The notes under the pieces: generated by a model
Databases searched by the model: none
What the model saw: the letters and a program-made list of their open reading frames with translations, nothing else
Told to the model about the DNA's origin: nothing
In this document: piece by piece, positions 1 to 19,813 of the stretch
Layout of the letters: each line of letters begins with the position of its first letter
Position numbering within the stretch: position 1 is the first letter of the stretch
Translations under genes and position numbers: made by a program
Origin: Pelagibacterium nitratireducens
GTDB taxonomy: Bacteria; Pseudomonadota; Alphaproteobacteria; Rhizobiales; Devosiaceae
Assembly: GCF_037044555.1 (NCBI RefSeq)
Contig: NZ_CP146275.1
Location: 3,266,501-3,330,500 of the forward strand
Reading direction: 5' to 3'
Length of the DNA stretch: 64,000 bases

Positions 1-44
1 ACAGGGGAGCCCAACTTCGGTGTTGTGGGTGGATACCGAGCCGG

Positions 45-1784
45 TCAGCGGTTCAGCCAGACGTTGGTCCAGTCGCCATTGCCACCGGCAGCATAGGGCA
101 GGAAGTTTTCGACGCGTGCGCCATGATAGAGCACGGTGGTCTGGGATATCAGCGGCACCGTCGGAGGATCGGCCATCACCACTTCGTCGACCTCGTTCCA
201 GAGGAGCTCGGCTTCCCCAAGATCGGTGGTGCTCAAGGCGCGTTCAGCGATCTCGTTGGCCGCTTCATTGTTATAGTCCGAGAAGTTGAAGGTGCCGTGC
301 GTGCCGTCATAGGTGTATTGCGGCTGGAAGATCGAGCGGGCGGCACCACCGGGCCAGTCCGGTGACCAGCCCGAAGGGACCAGATCCCAAACCCCGTTCA
401 GGGCGTTGTCGAAATTAGTGATCAGGCGCGGGTAGAAGTCTGACGCCGGGGTCGGGATCAGTTCGATCTCGAATCCCGCTTCCTGAAGGCTGGCCTGCAG
501 CACCTGGGCTTCGGCAGCACCATTACCCGCATTGCGGAACGGCATCTTAAGCGACAGGCCATCTGGATATCCCGCTTCGGCAAGAAGCGCGCGTGCACGC
601 TCGGGGTCACCCTGGCTGTCGGGTGTCGGGTAGGGCTCGAAATCGTGATGCCCCAGGATACCAAGGGGGAAGATCCCGTTGAGCGGTGTGGCAAATTCGG
701 GACCACCCACCTGCTGGACGACGGCTGCCTTGTCCACGGCGTAGTTGAGAGCCTGCCGTACCAGCGGATCGCGCAGCGCGCCATCATTGTTGTCCGAGAC
801 CGTGTTGATCCAGATCATTCGCGAGGCGCCTTCGGCGAGCGTCGAGATCTTTTCGTCACCCTGCATTGTGAGCATCTGCACGGTCACGGGCGGCACGTTG
901 ATATCATAGAGCATATCGCCATCGCCCGATTGCAATTGCTGCATGGCCGCATCCGGCTGAACGCCGGCAATGACTTCTATTTCATCGACATAGGCATTAC
1001 GCAACGGATCGCTTTCCGCATCCCAGGCAGGATTGCGCGATAGCGTGAGGCTCGTATCGGGGATGTAGGACGCGATCGTATAGGGGCCGCTGGAGATGTA
1101 ATTTTCCCGGTATTCCGGACTGTCGGGCAGATAATCAAGAACTTCAACCGGCGCCGGCGTCGTCACCGGCAGCGTCAGAAGATAGATGAAGTCGTTGGCG
1201 GCATAGTTGAGATGAAATACCACCGTGTCGTCGGCCGGCGTTTCGATGCCGGAGATATCGCTTTCTTCGATGTAGGCCTTCATCGCTTCAACGGTCGGCT
1301 CGACTTCGGCAAAGCCCGCGCAGAAGTCGGCAAACCCGACAACCAGATCTTCAAAATAGGACACCGCCGGAGCGGGAATGTAGGGGTTGCAGAGACGCAT
1401 GAACCCGCGCTCGACATCGTCTGCAACGATTTGACGCGCACCGTCCGGGGCATCCCAATTGGCGCCTTCGCGGAGCGTAAATGTATAGGTCGTGCCGTCG
1501 TCGGTCGCGGTCGGAACGCTCGCGGCGAGGTCGGCTTGCGGTGCGATCTGCTCGGCGGGATCTTCCGAGGCAGCAAAATTTATCAGCTGCCGCGTGGTCG
1601 CCCGGAAAAAGCTTCCTGTGTCTGCGGTTGCGGGCGGCACGGTGTCGAACCGGTCGACTTCCGCTGTGCCGAGAATCCGGAGCGTGCCACCGGTTTGCGG
1701 CTCTTGTCCATAAGCGCTAACGGAGCTCAGCAGAGCCAGAATAAGCCCTCCCGAAGCCACCATGGTGGATTTGCGAAATTTCAT
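45..1784 (-). CDS. ABC transporter substrate-binding protein, family 5 (peptide type)
   Basis: A 579-residue periplasmic binding protein of the SBP_bac_5 class, which captures oligopeptides or similar solutes and delivers them to an inner-membrane ABC permease. The N-terminus is a clear signal peptide: basic MKFRK, a hydrophobic stretch, then a likely cleavage after SAYG. The mature part begins GGTLRILG, typical of the class, and the length is slightly above the usual 500-550. The gene ends close to the left window edge, so permease and ATPase genes, if present, lie outside. It is divergent from an amidohydrolase and an S9 peptidase, which fits uptake followed by breakdown of peptides. Family assignment is firm; the substrate is inferred from context. 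Confidence 0.88.
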   Translation of the reverse strand: MKFRKSTMVASGGLILALLSSVSAYGQEPQTGGTLRILGTAEVDRFDTVPPATADTGSFFRATTRQLINFAASEDPAEQIAPQADLAASVPTATDDGTTYTFTLREGANWDAPDGARQIVADDVERGFMRLCNPYIPAPAVSYFEDLVVGFADFCAGFAEVEPTVEAMKAYIEESDISGIETPADDTVVFHLNYAANDFIYLLTLPVTTPAPVEVLDYLPDSPEYRENYISSGPYTIASYIPDTSLTLSRNPAWDAESDPLRNAYVDEIEVIAGVQPDAAMQQLQSGDGDMLYDINVPPVTVQMLTMQGDEKISTLAEGASRMIWINTVSDNNDGALRDPLVRQALNYAVDKAAVVQQVGGPEFATPLNGIFPLGILGHHDFEPYPTPDSQGDPERARALLAEAGYPDGLSLKMPFRNAGNGAAEAQVLQASLQEAGFEIELIPTPASDFYPRLITNFDNALNGVWDLVPSGWSPDWPGGAARSIFQPQYTYDGTHGTFNFSDYNNEAANEIAERALSTTDLGEAELLWNEVDEVVMADPPTVPLISQTTVLYHGARVENFLPYAAGGNGDWTNVWLNR

Positions 1785-1866
1785 GACTTCCCTTTCTGCC
1801 GCCTTGGCATTCCCTCAAAGCGTGGCCGGCATATTCCCTCACGGCGGCACACGCTTAGTCTGAGCA

Positions 1867-1876
1867 TTTGATCAAA
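1867..1876. promoter_or_regulatory. TTTGATCAAA palindrome, copy 1 (candidate operator)
   Basis: A perfect 10-bp palindrome about 80 bases upstream of the binding-protein start. An identical copy lies 117 bp away in the same divergent intergenic region. Two identical palindromes between divergent genes suggest a shared operator, but no regulator gene is visible beside it. Confidence 0.45.
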
Positions 1877-1983
1877 CTATCTCGAACTTACGAGTGAGGT
1901 GATGATCTTGTCAACGCCCTATCCATTCGCCGCGATCGAGCCATTCACACAACACAATCCATCGGATAGAGGGTTTGTGATTT

Positions 1984-1993
1984 TTTGATCAAA
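1984..1993. promoter_or_regulatory. TTTGATCAAA palindrome, copy 2 (candidate operator)
   Basis: The second perfect TTTGATCAAA, about 90 bases upstream of the amidohydrolase start. Centre-to-centre spacing to copy 1 is 117 bp, close to eleven helical turns, which would place both on one DNA face. Confidence 0.45.
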
Positions 1994-2081
1994 TGGCTTT
2001 ACATGTGGTCGGGTTGCCGACACATTGCCCGAAATTCCGGGTCGTTCTGACCCCACGTGCATGCAGGCGGAGAAAAATATC

Positions 2082-3326
2082 ATGGCAGCTATCGCTTTCA
2101 CCAACGCCACAATTTTCGACGGAGTGAGCGACGAGGCAGTTCCCGGGATGAACGTTCTGGTTGTGGATGGGTGTATCGAAGCGGTGAGTGAACACCCCTT
2201 CACGGGCGACGCCATGACCGTGTTCGATCTGGGGGGCAGAACGCTGATGCCCGGTCTGATCGATGCGCATGCACACGTCTTCGCCATCAATCTGGTCGAA
2301 GAGCACAATCGCAACATCCCGCTGACCGAGATGACGGCGCGGGCGGTACCGCGTATTCGCAAGATGCTCGACCGGGGCTTTACCAGTGTCCGTGATGTCG
2401 CCGGTGGAGACGTGGGCATTCGCAACGCCATCGCCCAGGGTTACATTCCCGGCCCCCGTCTTTTCGTAGGTGGCCCGGCTCTGAGCCAGATCGGTGGACA
2501 TGGAGACCATCGCAGCACGACCGATGAGAGCCTCGACATCGATCTCAATGCGAGCGCGTTTCACTTTACCTGCCGCATTGTCGATGGCGTGGACACAATC
2601 CGCAGCGTCGTCCGCAACGAAATGCGCAAGGGGGCCGATCATATCAAGGTGCTGGCGTCCGGTGGCGTCGGGTCGCCCAATGATGCCATTGAAGTTCCTC
2701 AGTTTTCCGAAGACGAGATCCGCGTTGTCGTGCAGGAAGCAGCCGTGCGCGGGAAATATGTGTGTGCCCACGCCTATGAAAGTGCAGCGATCCAGCATTC
2801 CATCAGAGCCGGAGTACGCACCATCGAGCACGGAAATCTCATCAATGCCGAAACCGCGGCAATGGTCGCGGCGGCCGATGCCTTTGTCGTGCCGACTCTG
2901 GTGGCCTATGAAGTCACGGCCCAGCACGGCGAGCGCCTTGGCCTGTCGCCTTATGTCATGTCCAAGCTCAACATGGTCAACGATGCGGGCATAGCCATGC
3001 TTGGCCTGTGCCAGGACGCTGGCGTCCAGCTCGGGTTCGGCACCGATCTGATGGGAGACATGGAATTTGCCCAGCTTGAGGAACTGGCCATCCGCGCCCG
3101 TGCGCAGCGCCCGGTCGATGTGCTCAAATCAGCGACATCGGTCAATGCCAAAATTGTCCAGCGCTCCGGCGAACTCGGCGTTATAGCGCCCGGCGCAATT
3201 GCCGATATCATCGTGGTGGACGGTGATCCGCTCAAAGACATTTCGGTTCTGACCGAACCGGAAAAGAACCTCCGTCTGATCATGAAAGATGGCGGAATTT
3301 ACAGGACTGACCTCACCGCCAACTAG
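2082..3326 (+). CDS. Amidohydrolase, prolidase / imidazolonepropionase-like
   Basis: A metal-dependent hydrolase of the amidohydrolase superfamily, 414 residues, of the subgroup that contains Xaa-Pro dipeptidases. Metal ligands are visible: HAH (H63, H65) after the first strand, K189 in HIKVLASGG as the probable carboxylated lysine, H230 in CAHAYES, H250 in TIEHGN and D322 in FGTDL. I chose ATG 2082 because GGAG lies 9 bases upstream and the homology begins at once (FTNATIFDG); an ATG 57 bases upstream has no comparable site. There is no signal peptide, so it is cytoplasmic. It lies 60 bp before an S9 peptidase on the same strand and is probably cotranscribed, suggesting cleavage of imported dipeptides. 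The exact substrate is not readable. Confidence 0.85.
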   Translation: MAAIAFTNATIFDGVSDEAVPGMNVLVVDGCIEAVSEHPFTGDAMTVFDLGGRTLMPGLIDAHAHVFAINLVEEHNRNIPLTEMTARAVPRIRKMLDRGFTSVRDVAGGDVGIRNAIAQGYIPGPRLFVGGPALSQIGGHGDHRSTTDESLDIDLNASAFHFTCRIVDGVDTIRSVVRNEMRKGADHIKVLASGGVGSPNDAIEVPQFSEDEIRVVVQEAAVRGKYVCAHAYESAAIQHSIRAGVRTIEHGNLINAETAAMVAAADAFVVPTLVAYEVTAQHGERLGLSPYVMSKLNMVNDAGIAMLGLCQDAGVQLGFGTDLMGDMEFAQLEELAIRARAQRPVDVLKSATSVNAKIVQRSGELGVIAPGAIADIIVVDGDPLKDISVLTEPEKNLRLIMKDGGIYRTDLTAN

Positions 3327-3386
3327 CGCCGGGTTCAACTGCGCCCGATTTCACCCCACCCGATTATCGTCCTGTAGAGCTCGACA

Positions 3387-5462
3387 ATGACTGCCCTTCA
3401 AACTGCCCCGCTGACCTTCGAAACCCTCTATAGCGAGCCCAGCATCATCGGCACCCTGCCCCTTGGCGCATGCTGGTCGGCGGATGGCAAAAAGCTGGCG
3501 TTTCTCTGGAACGATGCCGGCCACACCTTCCGCGATATCTGGATCTGGGAAAAGGATGGCAAGCGCGTTAGCCGACGCACCCGGCTTGGCATCGACAGGA
3601 CCAGCGGCGAAGCCAGGGGCATTTCCGAACTCGCCTGGATCGGATCGGACCGCCTTGCCTTTGTCCTGGACGGACAACTTTATAGTGTCGAAAGCGATGG
3701 CGCCATTGGCCCGTTGGCGATCGGCGCGGCGGTTGTGCGCTCGCTTGTCACGAGCCCCTCTGGGGATAGGTTGGCCTTTATTGCCGGCTCATCATTGATG
3801 ACAATCGCGGTATCGGGCACCACGCGAGCTGACCCTCTCGTAATGGGCACTGGTTTTGTGGGCATCGAATCCTTCAAATGGTCGTCCGACGGCAAACAGA
3901 TTGTCTTCGTCGAGTCCGATGACACCAACACCCGAAAAATCGAAATTGCCTATGATGCCAGGGGCGAAGCCCGAAGGGACCGGTTCACCCGCGCTTTTCC
4001 GGGGGATTTGCTGACGCGCCGCAGGATCGGTCTCATCGACGTCGCGGGCGGAGAGCCCCTGTGGTTCGAACGTCCCGATGCCGAAGACGCAATCTGGGGT
4101 TATGGCCTGTCGCCCGATGGAAATGCGCTGTTCATCAGCAGCAGCGTTCTCTCGATCAAAACGCATACCGTCTACATGTTCGACGTGCGATCGGGGGTGC
4201 GGACCGTCCATTATTCGGCGCATGACGCCTTCAAGATTCGCCCCGATTGGCAGGTCGAGTTTGCCCCCGACGGCAGGACGCTGATTATCCTGACTGATCG
4301 CGACGGGTTCAATCATCTCCATAGTCTCCCCACCGCGGGCGCGGCCCTTGAGCCCATCACGGCCGGCGCCTGGGAGATCGCCGAATTCGCCGTCGATGCC
4401 GCCAATGGCACCATCTACTTTGTCTCCAACGCGTCGCATCCGGCGGAACGCCAAATCTATTCGGTGCCGCTGACTGGAGGCCCTGTTTCGCAACTGACGC
4501 GAGCCGCAGGAATTCACGTGCCCATCTATGCGCCGGATTTCAGTGCATTTGCCGACCTGTTCAGCAACGACATGACCCCGCCGGAGCTCTTCGTTCGGGC
4601 CCTTCCGGACGCGTCCGACGACCACCAGATTACCCGGTCGCCGCGCCCCGAATTTGCCGATCACAACTGGGCCGAAGTGCGCTATGTGCCGTTCCAGAGC
4701 CACATCGATGGCGCCGAACTTGTGGCAAGGGTCATGCTTCCCGCCAATTTCGAGCCCGATGGCAGCCACCCCATGGTTGTTGGCTCTGTCTATTCCGACG
4801 GGCTTCTTAATCAGTGGGGCGGACGGGCGGCCCATCCCAGCTGGGGCATCGATCAGTATCTGGCCTCACGTGGTTTCGTGGTGGTAAGCCCGGAAATCCG
4901 CGGCAGCTTCGGGCGGGGCCGCGACTGGAACCGCCCCATGCTCAACAGCTATGGAAGCCAGGACATCGAGGATATTGCAGACTGCGTCAAAGCCCTCGTC
5001 GATCTGGGCTATGCCGATGGGCGGCGTGTCGGCCTTTGGGGGTCGAGCTATGGCGGACTGATGACGTTGATGTCGTTGTTCAAAAAGCCCGGATTTTATG
5101 CCGCCGGCTTTGCCGGCGCACCCGCCACCAACGTCTGGCACGCTTATCCCGAACAGGGCTGGATCATGGGGCTGACAGAGGGCGATGACTTTGTCGACCG
5201 CTACCGCGCCCAGTCGGCGCTGTTCCACAGCAAGGACCTTCAAGATCCCCTGATGATCCTGCACGGGACCAAGGATGAAGTGGTTCTTTATGCCGATACC
5301 ATCGCCCTGGTCGAAAAGCTGATCGCGCAGAACAAGAAGTTCGAACTCGTAACGCTGCCCGGGACGGGGCACGCCTGGGCAAAGCAGGATCTGGCGCTGA
5401 CGCGCTTCGCCTATGGAAAGCTTGCCGACTTTTTCGAAAAGACCCTGAAGGGCTCCAGGTAA
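3387..5462 (+). CDS. S9 family serine peptidase (prolyl oligopeptidase / acylaminoacyl-peptidase type)
   Basis: A 691-residue protein with an N-terminal WD40-like beta-propeller (repeated SPDG/SADGK motifs, about residues 20-400) and a C-terminal alpha/beta-hydrolase domain. The triad is visible: S554 in GSSYGG, D630 in HGTKDE and H662 in GHAW. Such enzymes release N-terminal dipeptides or acylated residues from short peptides, the propeller restricting substrate size. No signal peptide is seen, so it acts in the cytoplasm. It follows the amidohydrolase and faces the peptide-binding gene, making a peptide uptake and degradation locus likely. Length and domain order are normal. Substrate preference within S9 cannot be told from the sequence. 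Confidence 0.88.
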   Translation: MTALQTAPLTFETLYSEPSIIGTLPLGACWSADGKKLAFLWNDAGHTFRDIWIWEKDGKRVSRRTRLGIDRTSGEARGISELAWIGSDRLAFVLDGQLYSVESDGAIGPLAIGAAVVRSLVTSPSGDRLAFIAGSSLMTIAVSGTTRADPLVMGTGFVGIESFKWSSDGKQIVFVESDDTNTRKIEIAYDARGEARRDRFTRAFPGDLLTRRRIGLIDVAGGEPLWFERPDAEDAIWGYGLSPDGNALFISSSVLSIKTHTVYMFDVRSGVRTVHYSAHDAFKIRPDWQVEFAPDGRTLIILTDRDGFNHLHSLPTAGAALEPITAGAWEIAEFAVDAANGTIYFVSNASHPAERQIYSVPLTGGPVSQLTRAAGIHVPIYAPDFSAFADLFSNDMTPPELFVRALPDASDDHQITRSPRPEFADHNWAEVRYVPFQSHIDGAELVARVMLPANFEPDGSHPMVVGSVYSDGLLNQWGGRAAHPSWGIDQYLASRGFVVVSPEIRGSFGRGRDWNRPMLNSYGSQDIEDIADCVKALVDLGYADGRRVGLWGSSYGGLMTLMSLFKKPGFYAAGFAGAPATNVWHAYPEQGWIMGLTEGDDFVDRYRAQSALFHSKDLQDPLMILHGTKDEVVLYADTIALVEKLIAQNKKFELVTLPGTGHAWAKQDLALTRFAYGKLADFFEKTLKGSR

Positions 5463-5756
5463 GCCCGGCGTTCTTGTCTGACGCATGAATCCCCCGCTCC
5501 GTGCCCTTATCGGTCGGCGAATTTTTAGCGCGACGCCTCAATATCGCTTGGTGGGCTTATGGGCCCCAAATGCTGGCGGCACCCGATACGCGAGCCGCTT
5601 GCTTTTCTGCGCCGGTGACGAGAAGGGTCGTACCGCCATGGGGTTCGGTCGAAATGGCCGAGGACGCCTATTGCGATCCCTCGACTTTGCCGCAGATTGC
5701 CAAGAGTACCCCATCTGCTACAATCTGGCCGGGGAACGGGGGCTTGGCACTGGCTT

Positions 5757-7202
5757 ATGGTTGGATCTGAACCTGGTTGGGAAGAACAGGATCTCGACCG
5801 CGTCAGGACGCGGCGCAAAGCTTTGCTCAGCCTGCTGGAAGCCGATATTTCGCTTTTGATGAATGGCGCCGGGACGGGGTCTGCGGACCTCAAGCTCGAA
5901 CAGGCATTGCGGCTCGAAGCCGCTTCGCTCAGCAAGGTGCGACTGTGGCATTTTGTTTGGTCTCTGCCGAAAGGGACGCGGCTGGCCGGCCTGGCGGCTG
6001 GAAGTGAGCCGCAGTTTGTCGACGCTTTCGTGCTGGCGGGTCCGGCGTCTCTGGCACGGATTGCCGGTGCCTTCCGCAAGCCGGATTTTTCCGCAAGCGA
6101 TCTCTACGCAGCGCGCCAGACATTGGGCGGCGACGATGTGCGACGCTATGTCGGCTCGTTGGGGTCGGAAGCCGGCGAGGTCACATCGCGCCTGATCGAA
6201 TGTCTGAAGACGGCCGACCGGAGGGAAGGCGCGATCTGCCTCGGGATGGATCTGGCCTGGCCGAACTCGATTGGCACCGATCAGGAGAACAAGCTCGCCT
6301 TTACCGCCGAGATTGCGGACGGCAACGCGGACTGGTCGCCGGCCAGCCTGAGGCAGAACAAGATGCTTGCGGCAAACAAGGACTTCGTCGAAGCGCTGAT
6401 CGCGGCAAGCGTTGCGACGCGCGAGGACGTCTCCGCGGCGGCCAGACGCGACCGGGAGCGGCGCGAAAAGGAGGAGCCGCTGCGCATGCTTTTCGATGGC
6501 AATTCGGTCAGCAGCGAGGTCTTGTCGTTCAATTCGCGTGCGGAAGCGGACCTTGTGGGATTTTCCGGGCCGGTGGAAGGCGAAGCCGTGGTTCTCAAGG
6601 TTGCCGAACTCCCGTTCTACAAGCGTACGCGCCTCATCGACATGCTGGACCGGCGGAGTGGCTATCCCAAGATAGCCCGCTTCATGGGCGAATACAGCAT
6701 GGAGGGCAATGTCATCAGCTACGAACGCGTGCTGCCGATCGATTGGCAGTCCCGCACAATCTTTGCCAAGAACGCCTCCGAGAACCTGCGCCTGACGGCG
6801 GAAACGGTCCCCTCGTATCTGAAGTTTTTCTGCCAGTACATCAGGGGCAGCGACGGGTATTTCCGCATCATTGAAGACCCCGCCGAGTTGTCCTGGCTGG
6901 GCATCAGCAACGACGCCGCCCGAAGGGCAGCGAACCATATCCATCCCATAGAACTGTGGACGCCGGAGGCGGTGCCCGACCCGACCGGGGACGCCGCCAT
7001 GCAAGGCCAGGGATGCTATCTGGCGCGCGGTTGGGTCATCTATTCCCGCGCCTTGTTCGCGGCGGTCTTTTTGGTTTCCGAAACCGGGGCCGTGCGGATG
7101 ATCGAGGACCAGCCCTTCGGCGCACAATTGCCCATAGTGCCCGAGACGATCAGCAAAAAGACCCACTTCATCTACCTGCTCAGAGAAGAGGCGCAGGCAT
7201 GA
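5757..7202 (+). CDS. Hypothetical protein, first gene of a two-gene cassette
   Basis: I do not recognise this 482-residue protein. It has no signal peptide or convincing membrane segment. A charged, probably helical stretch (RRDRERREKEE) near residue 235 may link an N-terminal and a C-terminal domain; the C-terminal half is rich in short hydrophobic strands and has no catalytic motif that I can name. The start is uncertain: ATG 5757 is chosen, but TTG 5697 opens the same frame. Its stop overlaps the start of the next gene (ATGA), so the two are almost certainly translated together and probably act in one process with the membrane beta-helix protein. It sits between a peptidase gene and an IS remnant, consistent with accessory DNA. 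Confidence 0.7.
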   Translation: MVGSEPGWEEQDLDRVRTRRKALLSLLEADISLLMNGAGTGSADLKLEQALRLEAASLSKVRLWHFVWSLPKGTRLAGLAAGSEPQFVDAFVLAGPASLARIAGAFRKPDFSASDLYAARQTLGGDDVRRYVGSLGSEAGEVTSRLIECLKTADRREGAICLGMDLAWPNSIGTDQENKLAFTAEIADGNADWSPASLRQNKMLAANKDFVEALIAASVATREDVSAAARRDRERREKEEPLRMLFDGNSVSSEVLSFNSRAEADLVGFSGPVEGEAVVLKVAELPFYKRTRLIDMLDRRSGYPKIARFMGEYSMEGNVISYERVLPIDWQSRTIFAKNASENLRLTAETVPSYLKFFCQYIRGSDGYFRIIEDPAELSWLGISNDAARRAANHIHPIELWTPEAVPDPTGDAAMQGQGCYLARGWVIYSRALFAAVFLVSETGAVRMIEDQPFGAQLPIVPETISKKTHFIYLLREEAQA

Positions 7203-9739
7203 CCGGCGAAATGGACGCACGCGACTTCAAGGAGTTCATACGGCTCGGCCAGTTCGAAAAGATTGAACGCGCGCGCGTCACAGGCGAAGTGAGTTTTCGC
7301 GGCGAGGAAATTCCCCGCAACCTTCGCCTTCTCTACGTTACATTTCTGGGACCCGTCGATTTTGGCGACGCCCGGATTTCGGGGTCGCTGGACCTGACCG
7401 GATGCTGGTTTGGACGCACATTGAGCCTGTCCAATGCAATGATCGATGGTGAACTCATCCTTGACGATGTGGTCGTGGAGTCGACGGCCCAAAACGGGAA
7501 AGCCGGCGACTACGATCGGGCGGTCGTCGGGACTGCGCTCGATGCAAGCGGACTTCGGGTGACCGGTCGGCTCAGCGGCGCATTCCTTTCGGTGGTCGGT
7601 TTCGCCGATTTCTCTCACGCCAGGATCGACGCCAATGCAGCGTTCCTGGCCTTCGAGATCCGCAGATCCTTTGCGATGTCGGGGCTCACTGTCGGCGGCG
7701 ATCTGCACCTGACGGCAGGCTATCGCTCAGGCGCTACAACAAAGGGCTTTGTCGCGGGCAACCTTGACGCCGCAAATGTTTCTGTGCGGGGCAATGTGTT
7801 CATTGCCGGTGTCCACATCAACGGCAATCTCAATTTGTGGTCGGCCGATATCAGCGGCAATTTCTGGCTGACCCCTGCCGTTTTCAAGGGAAGCGAGGCC
7901 GTGGCTTCGGTTGTTCGCGGTGACATGCATCTCGGCGCCAGCACGGTGCGCGGCCACGTCCAATTCGAATCCGTGCAGATCGATGGGGTGCTCAAACTCT
8001 ATTCGGTGGACATCGGACCCTTGCGCATCAAGCACGCCAACGATGCCGATGCCGGACCTCTGGGACGCCGGGGGTGTCGACTCGGTGGAATGTGGGCGCT
8101 GGGCGCCAGGATCCGGGGAGACGCGCTTCTATACAATCTCGAGGTTTCCGGATTCGGCGTCGGCGGGGAGCGGGCGGTGGATCTCTCGCAGGCTACCATC
8201 GAAGGCAACCTTCGGCTTTGGGCGCCCGGCCAATTCCTCGAGGAGGGCATGAGGGTCACCAATGGAGCCGACATGCCCGAGGACCGGCAGAGCCTGATCG
8301 TGGGCGACATCGACCTTAGCGGCTGCTCGATCGGAGGCGACTGCAATCTCACCAATCTGCAGGTTGACGGAGCCGTACTGCTGGACGATGCGGAAGTAAC
8401 AGGTGACGTGCTGTTTCAGTCAGCTGTCTCTCTGCTTGACTCGCTACAGACCCAGGAGCGCCATCGCGACCTCTACAACCGGCTGGTGCAGCATGCGCTC
8501 GAGGACAGGACCGGGAAGCCAATGGCGCGGGTCAGGCGTCTTTCAATGGTCATGTTGCGTTGCCACAATGATGTCGATCTCAGTGGCCTGACGTTGCGGG
8601 CGACGGAGGCCGAAGTCCGCAGCCATAGCGGCTACGGCACCATCGACGCTCACGACATCACAGTGGCCGGTCACCTGTGGCAGTACCGGACCGTGGGGCA
8701 TCAGCGCTGGCAGCAGATTGCGGGCGGCGATGTCGGTATCAGGCCGCCGAACTCGGATGCACAGATACCGGGCAGCGCCGACTTCTCGGGATCGAAGGTC
8801 TGGCACATGTGCCTTTCGGGCGCCAGCTTCCAGACCCCGGTTACCAGAAGAGAGGATGCCGAAACGGTTGAGCGCGAACGCGGGCTCATCCTGGCGGGTG
8901 CCAAGATCAATGAACTCGAGATCACCCCGCTTTCGAGCCGGCACATCTTTCCCATTCCCATCAACCTGGCCGATACGGCCGTTACGCTGTGGAATCTGCA
9001 CGACGCTGACGACAACCGGTTCACACGCTACAAGTCACTGCTCGAGAGCGATGCCACCTTCAGGCGCTCGACCTATCTCGCCGCTGAGTCCAGCCTGCGC
9101 AACAGAGGCCATGAAGCCGAGGCCGACGCTATCTACCGGGAAATGGTCAGACGTGGCCACAGGGAGCGCGTTCGCCGCCGTTTCTGGCCCTCTCTGCTCG
9201 AAATCACCATGGTGGGCGTTCCGGCCATGCTGATCTCAATGACCCTGCAGCTCGACTTGCTGGTCATCCTCGCCACAATACTGATTGCCGCGCTGCTGTC
9301 GCGGCCGCTGGTGGCCTTTGTGCGCTGGCTGTTGTGGGACTGGCTGCTGGGATTCGGAACGCGACCCATAAGGATCGGCGTCGTGATCCTTATTTTCCTG
9401 ATTATCTCGTTTGCCGCGGTCTATTTGGATTCGCGGAATATCGGGCCCACAATCGGCGCCGAGGTTGCGACCCCCGATAGCCCCTCGTACCCGCAGAGGT
9501 GGGACTTGTGGGACGGCGCCGCCATAACGCTGCGCGTCCATGTTCCACTGGCAAATTGGGGGGTGCGCGACGACTGGCAACTGGCCGACGCTCCCGAGAG
9601 GAGCCTGTATTTCGCACAAACGCGCGTCGAAGGGGTCAGGCCGGAAGATTACGGCATGCTCATGATGATTCTGAACTTTTTGGCGTGGCCGCCCTTTCTC
9701 GCATTTGCCCTGCGCCGCGCCTTCCGCTTCGCATCCTAA
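7199..9739 (+). CDS. Beta-helix-repeat membrane protein of unknown function
   Basis: An 846-residue protein. Residues about 20-600 consist of imperfect repeats such as GNLDAANV, GNLNLWSADI and GDIDLSGCSI, the spacing of a right-handed beta-helix related to pentapeptide repeats. A helical TPR-like stretch follows (about 605-665), then hydrophobic segments near 669-710 (probably two), 724-745 and 818-840, so the C-terminus is membrane-embedded. The repeat-plus-membrane layout resembles proteins often labelled membrane-associated oxidoreductase, though I see no cofactor motif. The start overlaps the stop of the preceding gene by four bases. The coupling suggests a two-component membrane system: cytoplasmic protein plus helix scaffold. 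Function is unknown; a surface scaffold, channel-like effector or defence role are all guesses. Confidence 0.75.
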   Translation: MTGEMDARDFKEFIRLGQFEKIERARVTGEVSFRGEEIPRNLRLLYVTFLGPVDFGDARISGSLDLTGCWFGRTLSLSNAMIDGELILDDVVVESTAQNGKAGDYDRAVVGTALDASGLRVTGRLSGAFLSVVGFADFSHARIDANAAFLAFEIRRSFAMSGLTVGGDLHLTAGYRSGATTKGFVAGNLDAANVSVRGNVFIAGVHINGNLNLWSADISGNFWLTPAVFKGSEAVASVVRGDMHLGASTVRGHVQFESVQIDGVLKLYSVDIGPLRIKHANDADAGPLGRRGCRLGGMWALGARIRGDALLYNLEVSGFGVGGERAVDLSQATIEGNLRLWAPGQFLEEGMRVTNGADMPEDRQSLIVGDIDLSGCSIGGDCNLTNLQVDGAVLLDDAEVTGDVLFQSAVSLLDSLQTQERHRDLYNRLVQHALEDRTGKPMARVRRLSMVMLRCHNDVDLSGLTLRATEAEVRSHSGYGTIDAHDITVAGHLWQYRTVGHQRWQQIAGGDVGIRPPNSDAQIPGSADFSGSKVWHMCLSGASFQTPVTRREDAETVERERGLILAGAKINELEITPLSSRHIFPIPINLADTAVTLWNLHDADDNRFTRYKSLLESDATFRRSTYLAAESSLRNRGHEAEADAIYREMVRRGHRERVRRRFWPSLLEITMVGVPAMLISMTLQLDLLVILATILIAALLSRPLVAFVRWLLWDWLLGFGTRPIRIGVVILIFLIISFAAVYLDSRNIGPTIGAEVATPDSPSYPQRWDLWDGAAITLRVHVPLANWGVRDDWQLADAPERSLYFAQTRVEGVRPEDYGMLMMILNFLAWPPFLAFALRRAFRFAS

Positions 9740-10239
9740 CGCCGGGCGCCCAATTCGGGTGCGGCCCCGATGATCTTTTCGCCCGAACGCGAGCGGCGGG
9801 ACGCCGCGAATTTTTGGCCCATGCAGGGAAAGTGGCGCGCCGGTCAGAACAAACCTGCGAACACTTACTGCATTGAGTTACTCGGTAATTTACAGCCATA
9901 TACGAGAGTTTCGTGCCTGTTGTCACCGTATATGGAGTGACCGGGAAGGGGTCCGGCGCACTCTTCTGTCCGGCCCGTTGATGCAGCCACGAGAGACTGC
10001 TGGCCCTGATGGGGTCGGCGAACAAGGCCCCAATCTGGTTATCGGGCTATTGCGCCTCAGACAGTCCATGGGTTGTCCTTGCTCCCGGCCTGACCCGTAT
10101 CGCCATCACTTCGCTTCGCTCTTACAACCTCATGGAGCCGATTGATCGGTTCGAACTGGTATCCGCTTTAGGGTCACCTCATAGGTTTGGAACATGGCGG
10201 GCTTGATAGGTCTCGGCCCGAGCCACTATCGCCCGGACC
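9740..10239. other. Non-coding stretch downstream of the transposase remnant; possible IS end
   Basis: No open frame here looks real. The part at about 9930-10200 follows the broken IS110-type transposase on its 3' side and may be the element's non-coding end, which in IS110-family elements can carry guide RNA. I could not find clear element boundaries or a target duplication. The stretch near 9873-9930 is noticeably more AT-rich than its surroundings. Confidence 0.35.
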
Positions 10240-10611
10240 TCACCGCATGGTGGGGCGCGTCACCGCTTCGCAGATCGCCTCTGCGTCCACCGAGTCGTTC
10301 TTGCCGCGCTTCATATGGGGCTTGACGTAGGCAGGCGGCATCAAACGGACCTCGTGACCCAGCTTTGCCACCTCTCGCGCCCAATGGTGTGATGTGCCGC
10401 ACGCCTCCATACCGACCAAAAAGGGCGGCAACTTAGTGAAGAATGCCAGAACCTGCGATCGGCGCAGGGCCTCGCGAATGACAAGCTCGCCAGAGGCGTT
10501 GACGGCATGAACCTGGAAAATGCGTTTTGCCAAACCGGGGCCCAAAGTGGCAATCTGCGTGGCGGATGGCTCCTTTGCTCGGGTTGCCTGAGAGCAAACC
10601 CACTTTGGCAC
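10240..10611 (-). pseudogene. IS110-family transposase, truncated and inactive
   Basis: The frame encodes only the N-terminal DEDD half of an IS110-type transposase. Recognisable motifs are FQVHAVNASGE, VGMEACGTSHHW and KNDSVDAEAI, after which a stop appears right after RPTMR, where intact proteins continue for about 200 more residues (full length is usually 320-400). The first catalytic motif, normally G-x-D-x-A-K, reads GPGLAK here, so the first catalytic aspartate is glycine. Both the truncation and the lost residue indicate a dead copy. No flanking repeat was identified. It marks old insertion activity between the two-gene cassette and the decarboxylase locus. Confidence 0.85.
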
Positions 10612-10968
10612 TCAGATGCCGGGAGCGGGAGCCATCCACCTCATCTGGTTTGGGCGAGTAAGTACGGAAAGGCAACGTTCGCGATCCACCGCAATTTCAG
10701 TCATTCAAGCTGGGCTGCGAAGCGCTTGAAACCCGCCGTTTTGTTCACCACTGGCTGTTCGGCTTGAGCGGGCCTCGAAGAAGACAGGCAGGTTCGGTAC
10801 GGATCGGTGCTAGCGAACTTCGAGGCGGCAGCGGCAAGGTCTGCCCCAGTGGCTACACGGAACCATCATGACCGGGTCTCGCCTTTCTAAGCGACGTGAT
10901 CGAACTTGACGTCCAAACGCGACAACGCTGATTTTCGCTATCCGGCACGGCTGTGCGGCGAGTCGTGA
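10612..10968. other. Intergenic region with no recognised gene
   Basis: This separates the transposase remnant from the 3' end of the CadC-like regulator gene. The part next to the transposase would be its 5' non-coding end. I see no promoter, repeat or RNA signature that I can support, and the open frames on both strands give no family-like protein. Confidence 0.4.
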
Positions 10969-12519
10969 TCAGAAGCCATGTCGGCGCAGCTCCGCCGCAA
11001 TACGGGCGCGCGAGGCCGTTTCGCGTGTCGGGAAGGCAGCGAAATAGTCTGCTGATGTGGCGTCCGGCTTGAGACTGCGGGTCGTTTGTCGCCACCGGGC
11101 CGCCTGTTCATAACGCTCGGCCAGCCCGTTCGCGACAAGCGCGATCATAGCGATCAGGTAATGCGCTCCGGGCGTGGTCGCCGCACGGTCGGCCCAACCG
11201 GCCGCGGCCTCATAGTCTTCCTGCTGGATTAGCATCTGCGCCCGCACGCCGCGAATACCGTATAGCAGCGGGTCGAGCGGGCTCAGATTCAGCGAAGTGT
11301 CCAAGGCGGCGAACGCGACAGTTGCATTGCCCGTCAACATTGCCGTGAATGCTGTGGCATAAAATCCCTGCGCGTAATTCGGGTTCAGCGAGGTCGCCCT
11401 CGCCAGCCAGTCTGCGGCGATCTCGGGCTCGTTGGACAGCCAGAAGGTGCGCCCCATCGTGAAATTCGCGAACGGGTCGAGAGGGTCCAATTCGAGTCCG
11501 CGTTCGGCATGGCGACGTGCGTCTCGCGCCGCTTGCGCCGGATCGGGCGTCAGGCGCAGGAACGCGTCCAGAAAACTGGTGAAGGATAATCCCGCATGAG
11601 CGCGCCCAAGCTGAGGATCCGCCGTGATCGCACGCTCAAAGCAAAGCTTCGCAAGCGCATTGTCTGTTGCCGTGAACCTGTAGAGATGGCCAAGGCCGAT
11701 GTGGTAGTTGGCCCAGGCGTCCACTCCGGTTGGATCGCTCAGCCGCGCGATGCGCGCCTCGTTGAAGGGTATATGCGCCTCGAGTGCCGATACCAGGTGC
11801 GCCACGATCCGTCCCCTCAGATCGTCGATCTCATCAAGGGGAGACGCGAGCCTGTCTGCCCAGATGATCTCGCGCGAGATGGCGTCGGTCAGTTCGAGGG
11901 TCACCGCGATGCTGCGGCCGGGGCTCTCGATCACGCCGGACAGGACGTAGCGCGCGGCAAGTGCGGTCGACACCAGATCAAGATCGGCGGCGACCTGCCG
12001 GAAGCGGAAGGTTGATCCCCGCGCGATCACAGCAAGCCATCGCAACCGCGACAGTGCTTCGATGATCTCGTGCGGGATTGCGTCGCCAAGAATGGCGAGT
12101 TCCGGCAACATGCCGAGCTGTTGGAAGGGCAGAACCGCGATCGAAGGGCGCCCGCCAGAACGGTCTGGTGTCGGGTGGGCGGAGTCCTGCGAAGCCGCTT
12201 GCCCGGGCGACGAGGTGGTGACCTCCGGGATGAAGCGGAAGCCTCGACCATGGACCGTGGAGATTACTGCCTGTCGCGCGCCATCGTCGCCGACGGCCTT
12301 GCGGGCCGAGCGGATACGGCTCGAAACACTGGCATCCGACACAGCCTCGCCCTGCCACACTGCGGCAACGATTTCGTCCTTGGTGACCATGTGATCGCGG
12401 TTTCGAACGAGATGGATGAGCAATGAGAGTACCTGCGGCTCAAGCCGAACCGGCTCACCGCGACAGCTGAGCTGAAATCGCTCCGGATCGAGCCGAAAAT
12501 CGCCGAATGCCCAAGTCAT
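10969..12519 (-). CDS. CadC-like winged-helix regulator with TPR domain
   Basis: A 516-residue transcription regulator. Residues 1-105 form an OmpR/CadC-type winged helix (FGDFRLDPERFQL at the start, then DEIVAAVW and SRIRSARKAVGDDG). Residues about 130-240 are an adenylate-cyclase-associated-like domain (RPSIAVLPF, GSTFRF), and the remainder is a run of TPR-like helices to the end. No membrane segment is apparent, unlike classical CadC. The gene is divergent from the cysteine-synthase-like gene, with 138 bp between the starts containing an 18-bp dyad, so it most likely controls that operon. The inducing signal is unknown. Family assignment is strong because several motifs are intact across the full length. 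Confidence 0.87.
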   Translation of the reverse strand: MTWAFGDFRLDPERFQLSCRGEPVRLEPQVLSLLIHLVRNRDHMVTKDEIVAAVWQGEAVSDASVSSRIRSARKAVGDDGARQAVISTVHGRGFRFIPEVTTSSPGQAASQDSAHPTPDRSGGRPSIAVLPFQQLGMLPELAILGDAIPHEIIEALSRLRWLAVIARGSTFRFRQVAADLDLVSTALAARYVLSGVIESPGRSIAVTLELTDAISREIIWADRLASPLDEIDDLRGRIVAHLVSALEAHIPFNEARIARLSDPTGVDAWANYHIGLGHLYRFTATDNALAKLCFERAITADPQLGRAHAGLSFTSFLDAFLRLTPDPAQAARDARRHAERGLELDPLDPFANFTMGRTFWLSNEPEIAADWLARATSLNPNYAQGFYATAFTAMLTGNATVAFAALDTSLNLSPLDPLLYGIRGVRAQMLIQQEDYEAAAGWADRAATTPGAHYLIAMIALVANGLAERYEQAARWRQTTRSLKPDATSADYFAAFPTRETASRARIAAELRRHGF

Positions 12520-12553
12520 GTGAGAGCATACAGCACAATTCTTGGCTTCTACA

Positions 12554-12571
12554 GGAATTCTTCAGAACTCC
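12554..12571. promoter_or_regulatory. 18-bp imperfect dyad, candidate operator
   Basis: The site reads GGAATTCT, two bases, AGAACTCC: two 8-bp half-sites with one mismatched pair. It lies between the divergent starts of the CadC-like regulator and the cysteine-synthase-like gene, where an operator for both would be expected. Binding is inferred only from symmetry and position. Confidence 0.4.
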
Positions 12572-12657
12572 GTCAAGCCAGCACAAGGCGGACGGTGCAG
12601 ATTCCACGAGCGAAACTTGGCTCGCCAGTCAGAAGCAAGCGGCGAAGGAGAAAATCG

Positions 12658-13743
12658 ATGGACGCGATGACAATGCGCACAACACAGGGGCGTGGCAGGC
12701 TTTTCGCCAGCGTCCTCGAAACGGTTGGCGACACCCCCGCAATCCGGGTCAACAATCTGGCCCCGGCCGGTGTAGAACTCTACGTCAAGACGGAAGCTTT
12801 CAACCCGGCTGGATCGGTCAAGGATCGTCTGGCACTCAACATCATCGAGGAGGCAGAGCGCGACGGAAGCCTTAGGCCCGGTCAAACGGTGGTTGAGGCG
12901 ACATCGGGCAATACCGGCATCGGTCTTGCGATGGTCTGCGCTGCGAAGGGCTATCCCCTGGTCGTGACCATGGCCGATAGCTTCTCGATAGAGCGGCGCA
13001 AGCTGATGCGCATGCTTGGCGCCAAGGTCGTCCTGACCCCGCGCGCGCAAAAGGGTTTCGGCATGTACAGGAAAGCCGTCGAACTGGCCGAAGCGAACGC
13101 CTGGTTCCTCGCGCGCCAGTTCGAGACCAAGGCCAATGCCGCCATTCATGAGGCAACGACCGCGCGCGAAATCATCAACGATTTTGCGGGATCGCGGCTC
13201 GACTGGTTCGTGACGGGCTACGGCACCGGCGGCACGGTGGCGGGCGTTGGCCGTGTGTTGCGCCGGGAAAGGCCCGAAACGCAGATCGTGCTCGCCGAAC
13301 CGGCCAACGCGCAATTGATCGGCAGCGGTCGCTTGCAGGAGCGTGATCCCGGGGGCGCGCCGACCTCAAGCCATCCCGCCTTCGAACCCCATCCGATCCA
13401 GGGCTGGACGCCGGACTTCATTCCGCATGTGCTGCAACAGGCGATCGACGCCAGCCTCTACGACAACGTCACCCCTATCGCCGGCGCCGAAGGGATCAAA
13501 TGGGCGAAAGAGCTTGCGCAGAAGGAAGGAATTCTGACCGGAATCTCCGGCGGCGCCAGCTTCGCCGTCGCCCATCAGATTGCGGAGCAGGCGCCAGCCG
13601 GATCCGTCATCCTGTGCATGCTGCCCGATACCGGCGAACGATACATGACGACGCCGCTCTTCGACGGGATCGAGGCCGACATGGACGAGGGCGAACGCGC
13701 CCTCTCGTTGTCGACCCCCGGATACCAGCTCGCTGCCGCATGA
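12658..13743 (+). CDS. Cysteine synthase family PLP enzyme
   Basis: A 361-residue fold-type II PLP enzyme of the O-acetylserine sulfhydrylase / cystathionine beta-synthase family, which replaces the beta substituent of an activated serine by a nucleophile. K55 in NPAGSVKDR is the probable PLP lysine; SGNTG and GTGGT bind substrate and phosphate. ATG 12658 follows AAGGAG at a good distance, so upstream in-frame codons are excluded. It is followed directly by a PLP-dependent decarboxylase, with which it may be translationally coupled. That pairing suggests not housekeeping cysteine synthesis but formation of an amino acid that is then decarboxylated. The C-terminus carries an acidic extension of about 30 residues. 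The nucleophile used (sulfide, sulfite or other) is not known. Confidence 0.85.
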   Translation: MDAMTMRTTQGRGRLFASVLETVGDTPAIRVNNLAPAGVELYVKTEAFNPAGSVKDRLALNIIEEAERDGSLRPGQTVVEATSGNTGIGLAMVCAAKGYPLVVTMADSFSIERRKLMRMLGAKVVLTPRAQKGFGMYRKAVELAEANAWFLARQFETKANAAIHEATTAREIINDFAGSRLDWFVTGYGTGGTVAGVGRVLRRERPETQIVLAEPANAQLIGSGRLQERDPGGAPTSSHPAFEPHPIQGWTPDFIPHVLQQAIDASLYDNVTPIAGAEGIKWAKELAQKEGILTGISGGASFAVAHQIAEQAPAGSVILCMLPDTGERYMTTPLFDGIEADMDEGERALSLSTPGYQLAAA

Positions 13744-13763
13744 CGACGCCAAGGGGGACAGCA

Positions 13764-15239
13764 ATGATGGATGTGCTGCGCAAGCCTGCGTTCTCGGAAG
13801 CCGAAGAAACGCTAGACCCGTTCGACTGGAGCGATGTCCGGAAACTCTCGCATCGAATGGTCGACGATTCGATCGACTACCTCCGCGATGTCCGCGAGCG
13901 TCCGGCATGGCGGAAAATGCCGTTTGAGGTGAAGGAGACTTTCGAGCGGCCGCTCCCAAGGTCTCCCATGCCGCTCGACGAGGTCTATCGGCAGGTCAGC
14001 GACAACCTAATGCCCTATCCCATGGGCAACATACATCCGCGCTTCTGGTCCTGGTACATGGGGTCGAGCAATTTCACCGGGGCATTGGCGGACTTTCTTG
14101 CGGCCGTCCAGGGGTCGAACCTCGGCGGCGGCAATCATGCCGCCGCATTGATGGACGTTCAGGTCGTTAACTGGTGCAAGGAGATGATGGGATTTCCCGC
14201 CTCCGCCAGCGGAACGTTGGTGAGCGGCGGCTCGATGGCCAACCTGCTCGCTCTCACCGTCGCGCGCAACTTCAAGGCGGGAGTGAATATCCGCGAGGAC
14301 GGCATCGGCGCGATCGAAAGGCCGCTACGCTTCTACGCCTCGGACCAGGTGCACAGCTGCCACCGCAAGGCGGTGGAGGCGCTGGGGCTGGGCAACAAGT
14401 CGCTTCGCCGTGTTCCCACGGATGCCGAACTGCGGATCGACATCGCCGCTCTTCGGGCCGCCATTTCGGAGGATCGGGCCGCCGGCTTTAACCCGGCCTG
14501 CCTGATTGCTACGGCCGGCACGGTCAACACCGGCTCCATTGACGATCTGGAAGCTTTGGCTGACCTGGCGGCGGAAGAGGCTCTCTGGCTTCACGTCGAC
14601 GGCTGCATAGGAGCCCTACTGGCGATTGCGCCAGCGAATGCCTATCGCGTCTCAGGCATTACGCGCGCCGATTCCGTAGCTCTCGACCCGCACAAATGGC
14701 TGCACGCTCCATTCGAGGTCGGCTGCGTTCTGGTCCGCGACGCCTCCGCGCATCGCGGCGCCTTCGCCGTCACGCAGGAATATCTCGAATCGACGCCGCG
14801 CGGGCTCGCATCGGGCAATTGGCTGTATGAATACGGCCTGCAGACGACGCGCGGTTTCCGCGCGTTGAAGGTCTGGATGGCGCTCCTGGAGCATGGTGTC
14901 GAGAAGTTTGGCCGTCTGATCGACCAGAACATCGCGCAGGCGCGTTATCTCACCAGCCTGATCGAGCAGGAACCCCTGCTCGAGCTGGTCGCGCCGACCA
15001 GCATCAACATCGTCTGCTTCCGCTACAAACACGATGGCATTGACGAAGTCGGGCGCAAGGCCCTCAATCTCGAGATCATGCTGCGGCTGCAGGAAGAGGG
15101 TATCGCAGTGCTTTCGGACACGACCGTCCATGGCGAGCACTGCCTGCGGGTGGCGGTCAATAACCACCGAACCCGGCACGAAGATCTGGACATGCTCATC
15201 CAGGAGACGTTGCGGCTCGGCGCACTGCTCATGCCATGA
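13764..15239 (+). CDS. PLP-dependent (group II) amino acid decarboxylase
   Basis: A 491-residue enzyme of the aromatic amino acid / glutamate / cysteine sulfinate decarboxylase family, releasing CO2 from an L-amino acid. K311 in DPHKWLH is the PLP lysine; HVDGC carries the aspartate that binds the pyridine nitrogen, and HPRFWSWYMG is the N-terminal substrate-side motif. Two starts are possible: ATG 13764 after AAGGGGGA (chosen), and ATG 13740 overlapping the preceding stop. It is adjacent to the cysteine-synthase-like gene and shares its predicted regulator. Prokaryotic fusions of these two enzyme types have been linked to taurine formation, so cysteate or cysteine sulfinate are plausible substrates, but the residues in the substrate motif match neither known animal enzyme exactly. 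Confidence 0.85.
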   Translation: MMDVLRKPAFSEAEETLDPFDWSDVRKLSHRMVDDSIDYLRDVRERPAWRKMPFEVKETFERPLPRSPMPLDEVYRQVSDNLMPYPMGNIHPRFWSWYMGSSNFTGALADFLAAVQGSNLGGGNHAAALMDVQVVNWCKEMMGFPASASGTLVSGGSMANLLALTVARNFKAGVNIREDGIGAIERPLRFYASDQVHSCHRKAVEALGLGNKSLRRVPTDAELRIDIAALRAAISEDRAAGFNPACLIATAGTVNTGSIDDLEALADLAAEEALWLHVDGCIGALLAIAPANAYRVSGITRADSVALDPHKWLHAPFEVGCVLVRDASAHRGAFAVTQEYLESTPRGLASGNWLYEYGLQTTRGFRALKVWMALLEHGVEKFGRLIDQNIAQARYLTSLIEQEPLLELVAPTSINIVCFRYKHDGIDEVGRKALNLEIMLRLQEEGIAVLSDTTVHGEHCLRVAVNNHRTRHEDLDMLIQETLRLGALLMP

Positions 15240-15350
15240 CAGCACAGCGGACCAGGCCCGGGCGCACATGCACGGCATCGGTTACATCGAGATGGCAAGC
15301 GGTCATCCGTTGCGAGCAAATGACCGCCCCCTGTTCAAATTTCGGTCCGT

Positions 15351-15919
15351 TCAGCAAGAAGTCGAGATGACCCATTCATCGACCAGGCGCGCATACTGTC
15401 GCGTGCTCATGTGCTGATTGTGGTCGACACGGCTTGGAAGGGCCTAGTCACTGGCACTACCCCCTCGCCGTTCAAGCCAGGCCCATAGGCTGGCACGCAC
15501 ATCGCTGATCAATTCAATCGGACAGGACGTCCGGTCTTTTGTTGAACGACCACTGCCCGTGTTCGAATCTCGAGCCCAGTGACCAAGTCGCCAGTCTTGA
15601 CCTTGACGAGATCGCATCCGTAAAGCTTGCTGTCGATTGCGAGATCGAACAGGGCACGGTCTCGAAATCGGCCTTCCCGGTCCAGAAAGAAACGGATTGC
15701 CAAAATCTGCTTCCGGGTCAGAGGATGCTTGGTCCCTACAGTCTTTCCGGTATTCCACGCAGCCCGTCCTCGGGCCAAAGCATCAGATCTTGAGTATACC
15801 ATCGAAGGTCTCCTTTGGCGCTGATTGGCCAAGAGAGAAACGCTGAGATCGGCAGGCGCTGGGCCGACAGCCGAAGGTCCGGTTCCAGCTCGGAAACGGA
15901 CGAAGCTGACATTCGGCAT
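15351..15919 (-). pseudogene. Tyrosine-type site-specific recombinase, frameshifted and truncated
   Basis: The minus strand reads like the short phage-type integrases common in alphaproteobacteria: QRRPSMVYSRSD, ARGRAAWNTGKTVG, LTRKQI and RDRALFDLAIDSK in one frame. Near 15510 the homology shifts frame (VRASLWAWLERRGG), then shifts again to HMSTRQYARLVDEW and stops. The C-terminal catalytic part (HxxR and the nucleophile tyrosine) is absent. The first catalytic arginine, expected in a KLRGCDL-like motif, is tyrosine here (KLYGCDL). It is therefore a dead recombinase gene, and suggests the neighbouring genes arrived on an integrated element. The upstream boundary is approximate. Confidence 0.82.
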
Positions 15920-16047
15920 CCGCGCAATTTCGGTCGGTATGGCCGTGCATGACGAAGCCCAAAGCTGCCTTTCGGCCGGATGGCGACGTCGCTAAGCATT
16001 CCATTCCTGTCGTTCAATCGATGCGACATCCCGAAGGTTGCGAAAGC

Positions 16048-16077
16048 GGTGTGCGTCAACCCGGATTGACGCACACC
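16048..16077. repeat. Perfect 12-bp inverted repeat with 6-nt loop
   Basis: Arms GGTGTGCGTCAA and TTGACGCACACC flank the loop CCCGGA. It lies 22 bases past the stop of the minus-strand dehydrogenase gene, so it could help to end that transcript, but no T-tract follows on either strand. It could also be an operator or a protein-bound cruciform. Confidence 0.6.
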
Positions 16078-16099
16078 TGATACTTCTGGTCAGCTACGC

Positions 16100-16849
16100 T
16101 CAGGAGGTCAGACCGCCATCCACAGTGATGCTGGATCCGGTGACGAATGAGGCAGCCTCGGAGGCCAGGAAGGCGACCACCGCGGCGATTTCAGGCGGCT
16201 GGCCCAGACGGCCCAGCGGAATCATCGATTGCAGATGCTCGGCAATCGGGCCGCTGCCCGGGGTCATGTCAGTGGCGGTGGGACCGGGCTGCACGGCATT
16301 GACGGTAATGCCGCGCGGGCCCAGATCATGGGCCAGACCTCGGGTCATGCCCTCGATGGCCGATTTGGTCAGGGCATAGACGCTGGCCATCGGGCTGCCG
16401 ATCCGCCGCACGGTATTGCTGGCGATATTGATGATCCGGCCGCCTTGCCGCATATGGGCCAGGGCCTGCTGGATGGCAAAGTAGCTGGAACGCACATTGA
16501 CGGCGATCATGCGGTCGAAATCGGCCTCGCTGACGTCATCCACCATGCCCAGCACCATGATGCCGGCATTGTTGACGAGAATGTCGAGGCCGCCAAACTG
16601 CGCCGCAGCGTCATTGATCGCTTTCCGGACCGCAGCGATGTCGCCACTGTCAGCCTTGATGGCCCTGGCATAGCCCCCGGTTGCTTGAATTTCGGCCGCC
16701 ACCTGCCGGGCCGCGTCTGCGCTGGCCGAATAGCTGAAGGCGACCTGGGCGCCGTCTGCCGCCAGTCGGCGGACAATCGCGGCGCCGATGCCGCGTGAAC
16801 CGCCGGTAACGAAGGCGCGCTTGCCGGCAAGGCTTGGAGAAGTTGTCAT
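16100..16849 (-). CDS. SDR family oxidoreductase (FabG-like)
   Basis: A 249-residue classical short-chain dehydrogenase/reductase. The cofactor motif TGGSRGIG is near the N-terminus, NNAG follows, and the catalytic residues are S in NIASN and Y-x-x-x-K in YALTKSA. The C-terminal SITVDGG is typical of FabG-like proteins. ATG 16849 is chosen; an in-frame GTG nine bases upstream would add three residues. It lies 42 bp downstream of another dehydrogenase on the same strand, so they are probably cotranscribed and controlled by the divergent AraC regulator. The likely role is NAD(P)H-dependent reduction of a ketone or aldehyde; the substrate is unknown. Confidence 0.88.
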   Translation of the reverse strand: MTTSPSLAGKRAFVTGGSRGIGAAIVRRLAADGAQVAFSYSASADAARQVAAEIQATGGYARAIKADSGDIAAVRKAINDAAAQFGGLDILVNNAGIMVLGMVDDVSEADFDRMIAVNVRSSYFAIQQALAHMRQGGRIINIASNTVRRIGSPMASVYALTKSAIEGMTRGLAHDLGPRGITVNAVQPGPTATDMTPGSGPIAEHLQSMIPLGRLGQPPEIAAVVAFLASEAASFVTGSSITVDGGLTS

Positions 16850-16891
16850 TAAAGGCACTTTCTGCCGCTGGGCGGCTGGGTGAGGAAAACG

Positions 16892-17860: not shown

Positions 17861-17940
17861 GTGTTCTGCTCCGCTTGTCATGCCTACTGATATGACCTAC
17901 TTCTTCGGATAAACCAGTCAGTGAAGTCCGAGATAATATC

Positions 17941-19128: not shown

Positions 19129-19179
19129 GTTAGGCTCCCCGTCAATGGGCGACCGGAGCCAGGTCCCGGCCGTCAGGCT

Positions 19180-19644: not shown

Positions 19645-19813
19645 GACGTTGGCTTTCGGTGTGGGTTTCGATGTCCCCACTCTCCAGGCAGGACGGGTAT
19701 GGCCGACAGTGGCCGCAATCGATACCGAGCCTCGCCTTTGGCATAGGGCGGTCATGCCAAAGGCTGTTCGCAGCGGCAGAATGGCCGGGGTCTTTCCTCC
19801 CGGGGTCCATGGA

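Follow-up and report, generated by a model that had tools for sequence, protein, structure and literature searches.

We describe a two-gene cassette at positions 5757–9739 of a 64,000-nucleotide stretch of Pelagibacterium nitratireducens DNA (contig NZ_CP146275.1, from a 3.85 Mb assembly), hereafter the window. Its first gene, A (5757–7202, + strand), encodes a protein of 481 amino acids (aa) that carries, near its C-terminus, a conserved module of ~160 residues, which we call the A domain. Its second gene, B (7199–9739, + strand), encodes a predicted beta-helix protein of 846 aa that ends in predicted membrane helices. Reading from sequence, and with a probability of about one in three, we propose that the two genes may form a rare accessory conflict system of two parts, with A as a soluble sensor/adaptor and B as a membrane-anchored beta-helix effector. 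This division of labour, with A sensing or adapting and B acting at the membrane, is suggested by the nucleoside triphosphatase (NTPase) partners of the A domain elsewhere, the predicted anchoring of B and the conflict-type neighbours of both families. What is new here is the NTPase-free, membrane-beta-helix pairing of a domain that elsewhere accompanies STAND-like NTPases.

Through the A domain, a membrane beta-helix protein is connected to STAND-like NTPases and to an AAA+ protein. Should this domain be a shared sensor/adaptor, the cassette would be its simplest two-part setting, and one in which its function is directly testable. If the proposed role of B is true, it would give a broad, mostly unannotated family of membrane-anchored beta-helix proteins its first biological role.

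Two intact and overlapping genes

An earlier note on this DNA, made from its letters, had described two genes overlapping by ATGA, the first unrecognised and the second combining a beta-helix with a membrane C-terminus, and the analyses reported in this and the following sections agree with it, the beta-helix and the membrane C-terminus as predictions. Both open reading frames (ORFs) are intact. The start codon of B (ATG, 7199–7201) overlaps the stop codon of A (TGA, 7200–7202) in the tetranucleotide 7199–7202, and a GAAGAGG motif inside the end of A (7185–7191, + strand), which precedes B's ATG by 7 nt, is likely the ribosome-binding site of B. We infer from this layout that the two genes are translationally coupled. 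The ATG start of A is assumed, as its frame stays open further upstream to a TTG at 5697.

A same-species contig, L003 ('MAG: Pelagibacterium sp. isolate SP179'), served as the reference for divergence. Against it, 17 of 481 residues differ in A and 15 of 846 in B, both genes are of equal length with no frame break, and the ratios of nonsynonymous to synonymous substitution rates (dN/dS) are 0.28 (A) and 0.25 (B), rough values because only two sequences of one species are compared. Three neighbouring genes give nearby ratios (0.20–0.24). Judged by these sequences, A and B are real genes and look to be under purifying selection. The nucleotide differences from L003 are unevenly spread: 57 of 225 fall in 6500–7999 (the end of A and the start of B) and 70 of 225 in 9500–11499. 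Within A, dS is 0.10 for residues 251–481 and 0.027 for residues 1–250, a contrast that hints at a recombined patch.

Pairing of A and B across genomes

B of this type is rare. A profile of its C-terminal part (A3) matches three of 387 genomes of the window's class and three of 297 genomes of its order; among these, two weak matches were set aside, that in G706 as chance (short, with in-frame stops) and the B-type gene of G083, which runs off its contig end. Full genes of the B subfamily thus number three (window, and the distant alphaproteobacterial genomes G427 and G113), and A lies directly upstream in all three. The genes join by an ATGA overlap in the window and in G427; in G113 they either overlap at a GTG or stand 4 bp apart. 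A C-terminal tail containing KTHFI is likewise common to the A proteins of the window and G427. Within their own families, B was found in one of 12 genomes for G427 and one of four for G113, in each case the named genome itself.

The A domain is more widespread. A profile of six A-domain sequences (A2) finds 42 places in 25 of the 387 class genomes, and we took the surroundings of 36 of these (window included), mostly ~6 kb per side and less at contig ends; the other six places lie in G444 (three), G734, G520 and G671 (one each). A B-type gene adjoins the A domain in two of the 36, the window and G427. In the window's order, a profile of 28 rows (A7) finds the A domain in four of 297 genomes: B accompanies it in the window and G113, and a P-loop NTPase, fused or coupled, in G302 and G228. 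The earlier note had asked whether the two genes always occur together. In the narrow sense they do, since every full B-subfamily gene has A upstream; in the wide sense they do not, as the A domain is mostly found away from B-type genes and wider relatives of B have no A domain nearby (see below), which counts against the note's reading by the standard that the note itself had set. That is, the A–B pairing is real, yet not exclusive.

In a phylogeny of 29 A domains, a single, weakly supported branch sets the three B-partnered ones to one side, and none of 500 shuffles of the B-partner label clustered as strongly.

The A domain and its partners elsewhere

At E<=1, protein A finds nothing in Pfam, NCBIfam or PADLOC. 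No housekeeping family matched it. Its A domain occupies residues 281–460 (6597–7136, + strand), as delimited by profile searches. When 28 A-domain rows were scanned singly, Pfam and PHROGs returned only scattered single-member matches (best E 0.088 and 0.073, respectively), and the domain profile found nothing in the PDB better than E 0.93. A solved-structure search with A gave only E values of 0.45–0.93. An iterated local profile collects 51 domain rows in 45 ORFs (from selected loci, with some near-copies). By these searches, the A domain is a module without a model in the libraries searched. The N-terminal part of A (residues 1–280, 5757–6596, + strand) is probably helical according to a low-confidence model, and the region preceding the A domain in four other A proteins has no recognisable kinship to it. 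We also considered A as a duplicated A domain and rejected this, as its N-terminal 255 residues fail to match the profile.

Some partners of the domain suggest a link to conflict systems. The NTPase assignments below are based on P-loops and Pfam matches, most of the latter under cut-off. In G302, a 1424-aa P-loop protein with Sel1 repeats ends in two A domains (nSTAND3 E=0.004, under cut-off). In G228 (of the window's order) and G417 (of another order), the A gene follows immediately on the gene of a P-loop protein of 1406 or 1414 aa, their codons overlapping; the Pfam matches of these two NTPases are weak and under cut-off. A Thiodictyon plasmid, from a gammaproteobacterium, encodes a P-loop/TPR protein that the A domain ends (AAA_16 E=2e-8, above cut-off; NACHT E=0.001, below). 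In G728 the domain's fusion partner is an AAA+ protein, identified by eye through Walker motifs. On a Sinorhizobium plasmid, the A domain has on one side a patatin gene, whose product matches the PADLOC family 'Effector, Phospholipase' at E=7e-47, and on the other a gene with the annotation 'conjugative DNA transfer protein'; a DUF4062/NB-ARC/TPR protein is encoded close by (two of these matches under cut-off). A further relative, in G014, is a putative lipoprotein, with neither B nor a large NTPase on its 5-kb contig.

Several of these loci are of interest in their own right. The G302 locus (L009, 3217–9607) holds, in a row, a resolvase-like gene, a DUF4238 gene (Pfam E=1e-32; PADLOC DUF4238-Pers E=2e-7) and the gene for the 1424-aa P-loop/Sel1 protein with its two A domains, and is a candidate for a separate defence locus. 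The two-gene units of G228 (L112, 7278–12646) and G417 (L053, 6251–11547) encode A proteins that are 33% identical over almost their whole length, and the G228 unit is followed by an IS110-like gene (by eye). The Sinorhizobium locus (L103, S. meliloti pEm1132b, 1–12426) also encodes an ankyrin-repeat protein and an ATPase of the conjugative-transfer type; it resembles a defence-type cluster carried by a conjugative plasmid.

Protein B as a predicted membrane-anchored beta-helix

The N-terminal part of B matches Pentapeptide_3 (PF13576) at E=4.4e-14 and 52.9 bits (cut-off 27), with the best stretch at residues 47–91 (7337–7471, + strand). Over residues 1–560, its lag-5 hydrophobic autocorrelation is 0.121, a value reached in none of 500 shuffles. 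The AlphaFold2 model of B, built from two sequences, has a strand-rich N-terminal part, with a predicted local distance difference test (pLDDT) score mostly of 70–90 per block over residues ~1–340 and low past ~400. In a Foldseek search with the B model, beta-helix proteins dominate the top matches, none of them at E<=0.001, and a solved-structure search with B gave no match at E<=0.1. Hydropathy predicts four membrane segments in the window's B, at residues 665–838 (9191–9712, + strand), and, for the proteins of G113 and G427, two towards the C-terminal end. None of the C-terminal parts of B (window, G113, G427, G083) matched a Pfam family at E<=5. Altogether, B is predicted to be a beta-helix followed by C-terminal membrane helices. 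The beta-helix would lie in the cytoplasm, because B lacks a hydrophobic N-terminal segment and has more basic than acidic residues ahead of its first membrane segment.

Wider relatives of B can be traced beyond the three paired genes. The profile of B's C-terminal part matched Rhizobium (E=2e-6) and Microvirga (E=1e-5) proteins in a small local search, and a query with the truncated protein of G083 found similar proteins in six plasmid-collection records. The Streptomyces, Nonomuraea and Acaryochloris proteins are tied to B solely via the G083 protein. The direct link from B to its wider relatives is of moderate strength. These proteins, mostly unannotated or named 'hypothetical protein', resemble B in having beta-helix repeats and then predicted C-terminal membrane segments; unlike B, none has an A domain within ~5 kb (0/6 plasmid-collection loci at E<=1). 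The Acaryochloris relative is grouped with two genes annotated as CU044_2847 family (one was scanned: Trypco1, E=3e-27), and a caspase-nSTAND1 gene lies beyond a transposase at the same locus.

A rare and accessory cassette

The same-species genome G347 carries the cassette, with a DNA match of 98% over 1278–18765 when bases 1–20000 were the query. With this query, none of the 11 congeners (G001–G011) has a listed DNA match inside 5757–9739, and protein searches of the same congeners found neither A (0/11) nor B (0/11). The accessory distribution suggested by the earlier note thus stands, as does its report of insertion-sequence (IS) debris beside the cassette: an IS110-type transposase fragment, a neighbour outside the proposed system, lies at 10240–10611 (− strand; PF01548 E=1.4e-5, 25.4 bits, slightly under the cut-off of 29), and similar DNA turns up in several congeners. 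For the flanking peptidase and regulator, the congeners offer only distant relatives (23–33% identity), and the accessory stretch therefore exceeds the cassette. The cassette is rare and accessory, and likely mobile.

How the cassette might act, and what else it might be

The proposed conflict mechanism would run as follows. A would be made just before B, from translationally coupled genes, and would dock on the beta-helix of B via its C-terminal domain, which in other genomes is partnered with a STAND-like NTPase. A trigger would alter A, upon which B may assemble or open its membrane segments at the inner membrane, and the cell would be arrested or would leak before the invader spreads. A broader version, in which the A domain is an undescribed sensor/adaptor of alphaproteobacteria (and one gammaproteobacterial plasmid) with interchangeable partners (STAND-like NTPases, an AAA+ ATPase or a beta-helix membrane protein), so that the window would hold an NTPase-free two-gene immune system killing or arresting its host via the membrane, is in our view possible but unlikely.

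Several observations weigh against the conflict mechanism. In 31 of the 36 places, the A domain sits in an ORF of 196–270 aa that has no B-type gene beside it (the window, G427, G417, G728 and G438 make up the rest), and those small A genes that have named neighbours adjoin housekeeping genes, yfiO, recN and ligA among them (identified by Pfam at one locus, by eye at the others), which counts against a defence role for the A domain itself. The defence library PADLOC-DB 2.0.0 has no family for A or B at E<=1. The AlphaFold2 model of A, built from two sequences, is unusable (pLDDT 36), and the docking of A on B is therefore unsupported; no channel or pore family matched the C-terminus of B, as might have been expected of an ion channel with two membrane helices and a pore loop. 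A single origin of the B-linked A domains is weakly backed, with a branch support of 34/69 amid long branches. Nor was phage, plasmid or viral carriage found for the close cassette: no relative of A or B was confirmed in viral contigs, and the plasmid collection gave no match for A, for A and B of G427 or for B of G113, and for B a single one (Roseomonas, covering 24% of B, without an A domain near).

A possible alternative, which we rate almost as probable, is that B is a non-lethal membrane scaffold and A its cytoplasmic client or chaperone, likely in envelope upkeep or stress. The A domain would then be a general protein-binding module and its STAND links mere reuse. The prevalence of small stand-alone A genes beside housekeeping genes fits this, as does their presence in 2–4 copies in several genomes, with two copies adjoining Hsp70-like genes (named by eye). 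Pentapeptide repeats are also counted among the scaffold-forming domains of NTP-dependent conflict systems in one article (PMC7159879). On the other hand, a rare accessory cassette that is absent from congeners fits upkeep badly, and conflict-type partners and neighbours occur in both families. It is the stand-alone A genes by housekeeping genes, the lack of a defence-library match and the lack of a structure for A that hold the conflict mechanism to its modest probability relative to the scaffold.

A toxin–antitoxin or effector–immunity pair, in which B would be a membrane toxin that A restrains, seems improbable to us. Its appeal lies in the small upstream partner, the overlapping genes and the membrane-anchored second protein; however, A is large for an antitoxin (481 aa here, 600 aa in G427), A domains are fused to NTPases, and no PADLOC or Pfam toxin or antitoxin family matched. 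Least probable is that A and B are chance neighbours in a mobile stretch with no joint work, since, even though the A domain mostly occurs without B and the wider B relatives without A, the same gene order recurs in three distant genomes, with the ATGA overlap in two, and dN/dS is near 0.25–0.28 in both genes.

Relation to known systems

The cassette has likenesses to, and differences from, several described groups. The N-terminal repeats of B resemble those of pentapeptide-repeat proteins (PF13576), over cut-off and with a five-residue period, and its strand-rich model makes the right-handed quadrilateral beta-helix of that group a candidate fold, but B far exceeds them in length, has predicted membrane helices at its end and is encoded together with A. 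The link to STAND NTPase conflict systems runs through the A domain, which G302, G417, G228 and the Thiodictyon plasmid combine, by fusion or coupling, with P-loop STAND-like NTPases, whereas no NTPase family of Pfam or NCBIfam matches the window's A or B. The order differs as well: in the STAND-like units of G417 and G228 the NTPase gene comes before A, while in the window B comes after it. Searches of open-licence papers, read by the opening of each abstract, showed nothing on such an A–B pair.

Genomic surroundings

Upstream of the cassette lie an amidohydrolase gene (2025–3326) and an S9 peptidase gene (3387–5462), and downstream a winged-helix/TPR regulator (10969–12519). An Rfam scan of 1–20000 at gathering scores gave no match. 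Further downstream, 15297–15936 is repeated in many congeners at 72–89% DNA identity, and a short ORF within it (15509–15919, − strand) resembles part of a tyrosine recombinase by eye, with no Pfam match at E<=0.01. The sole tRNA gene that ARAGORN found in the window, a tRNA-Arg at 24441–24517, could be the site where the accessory region attached.

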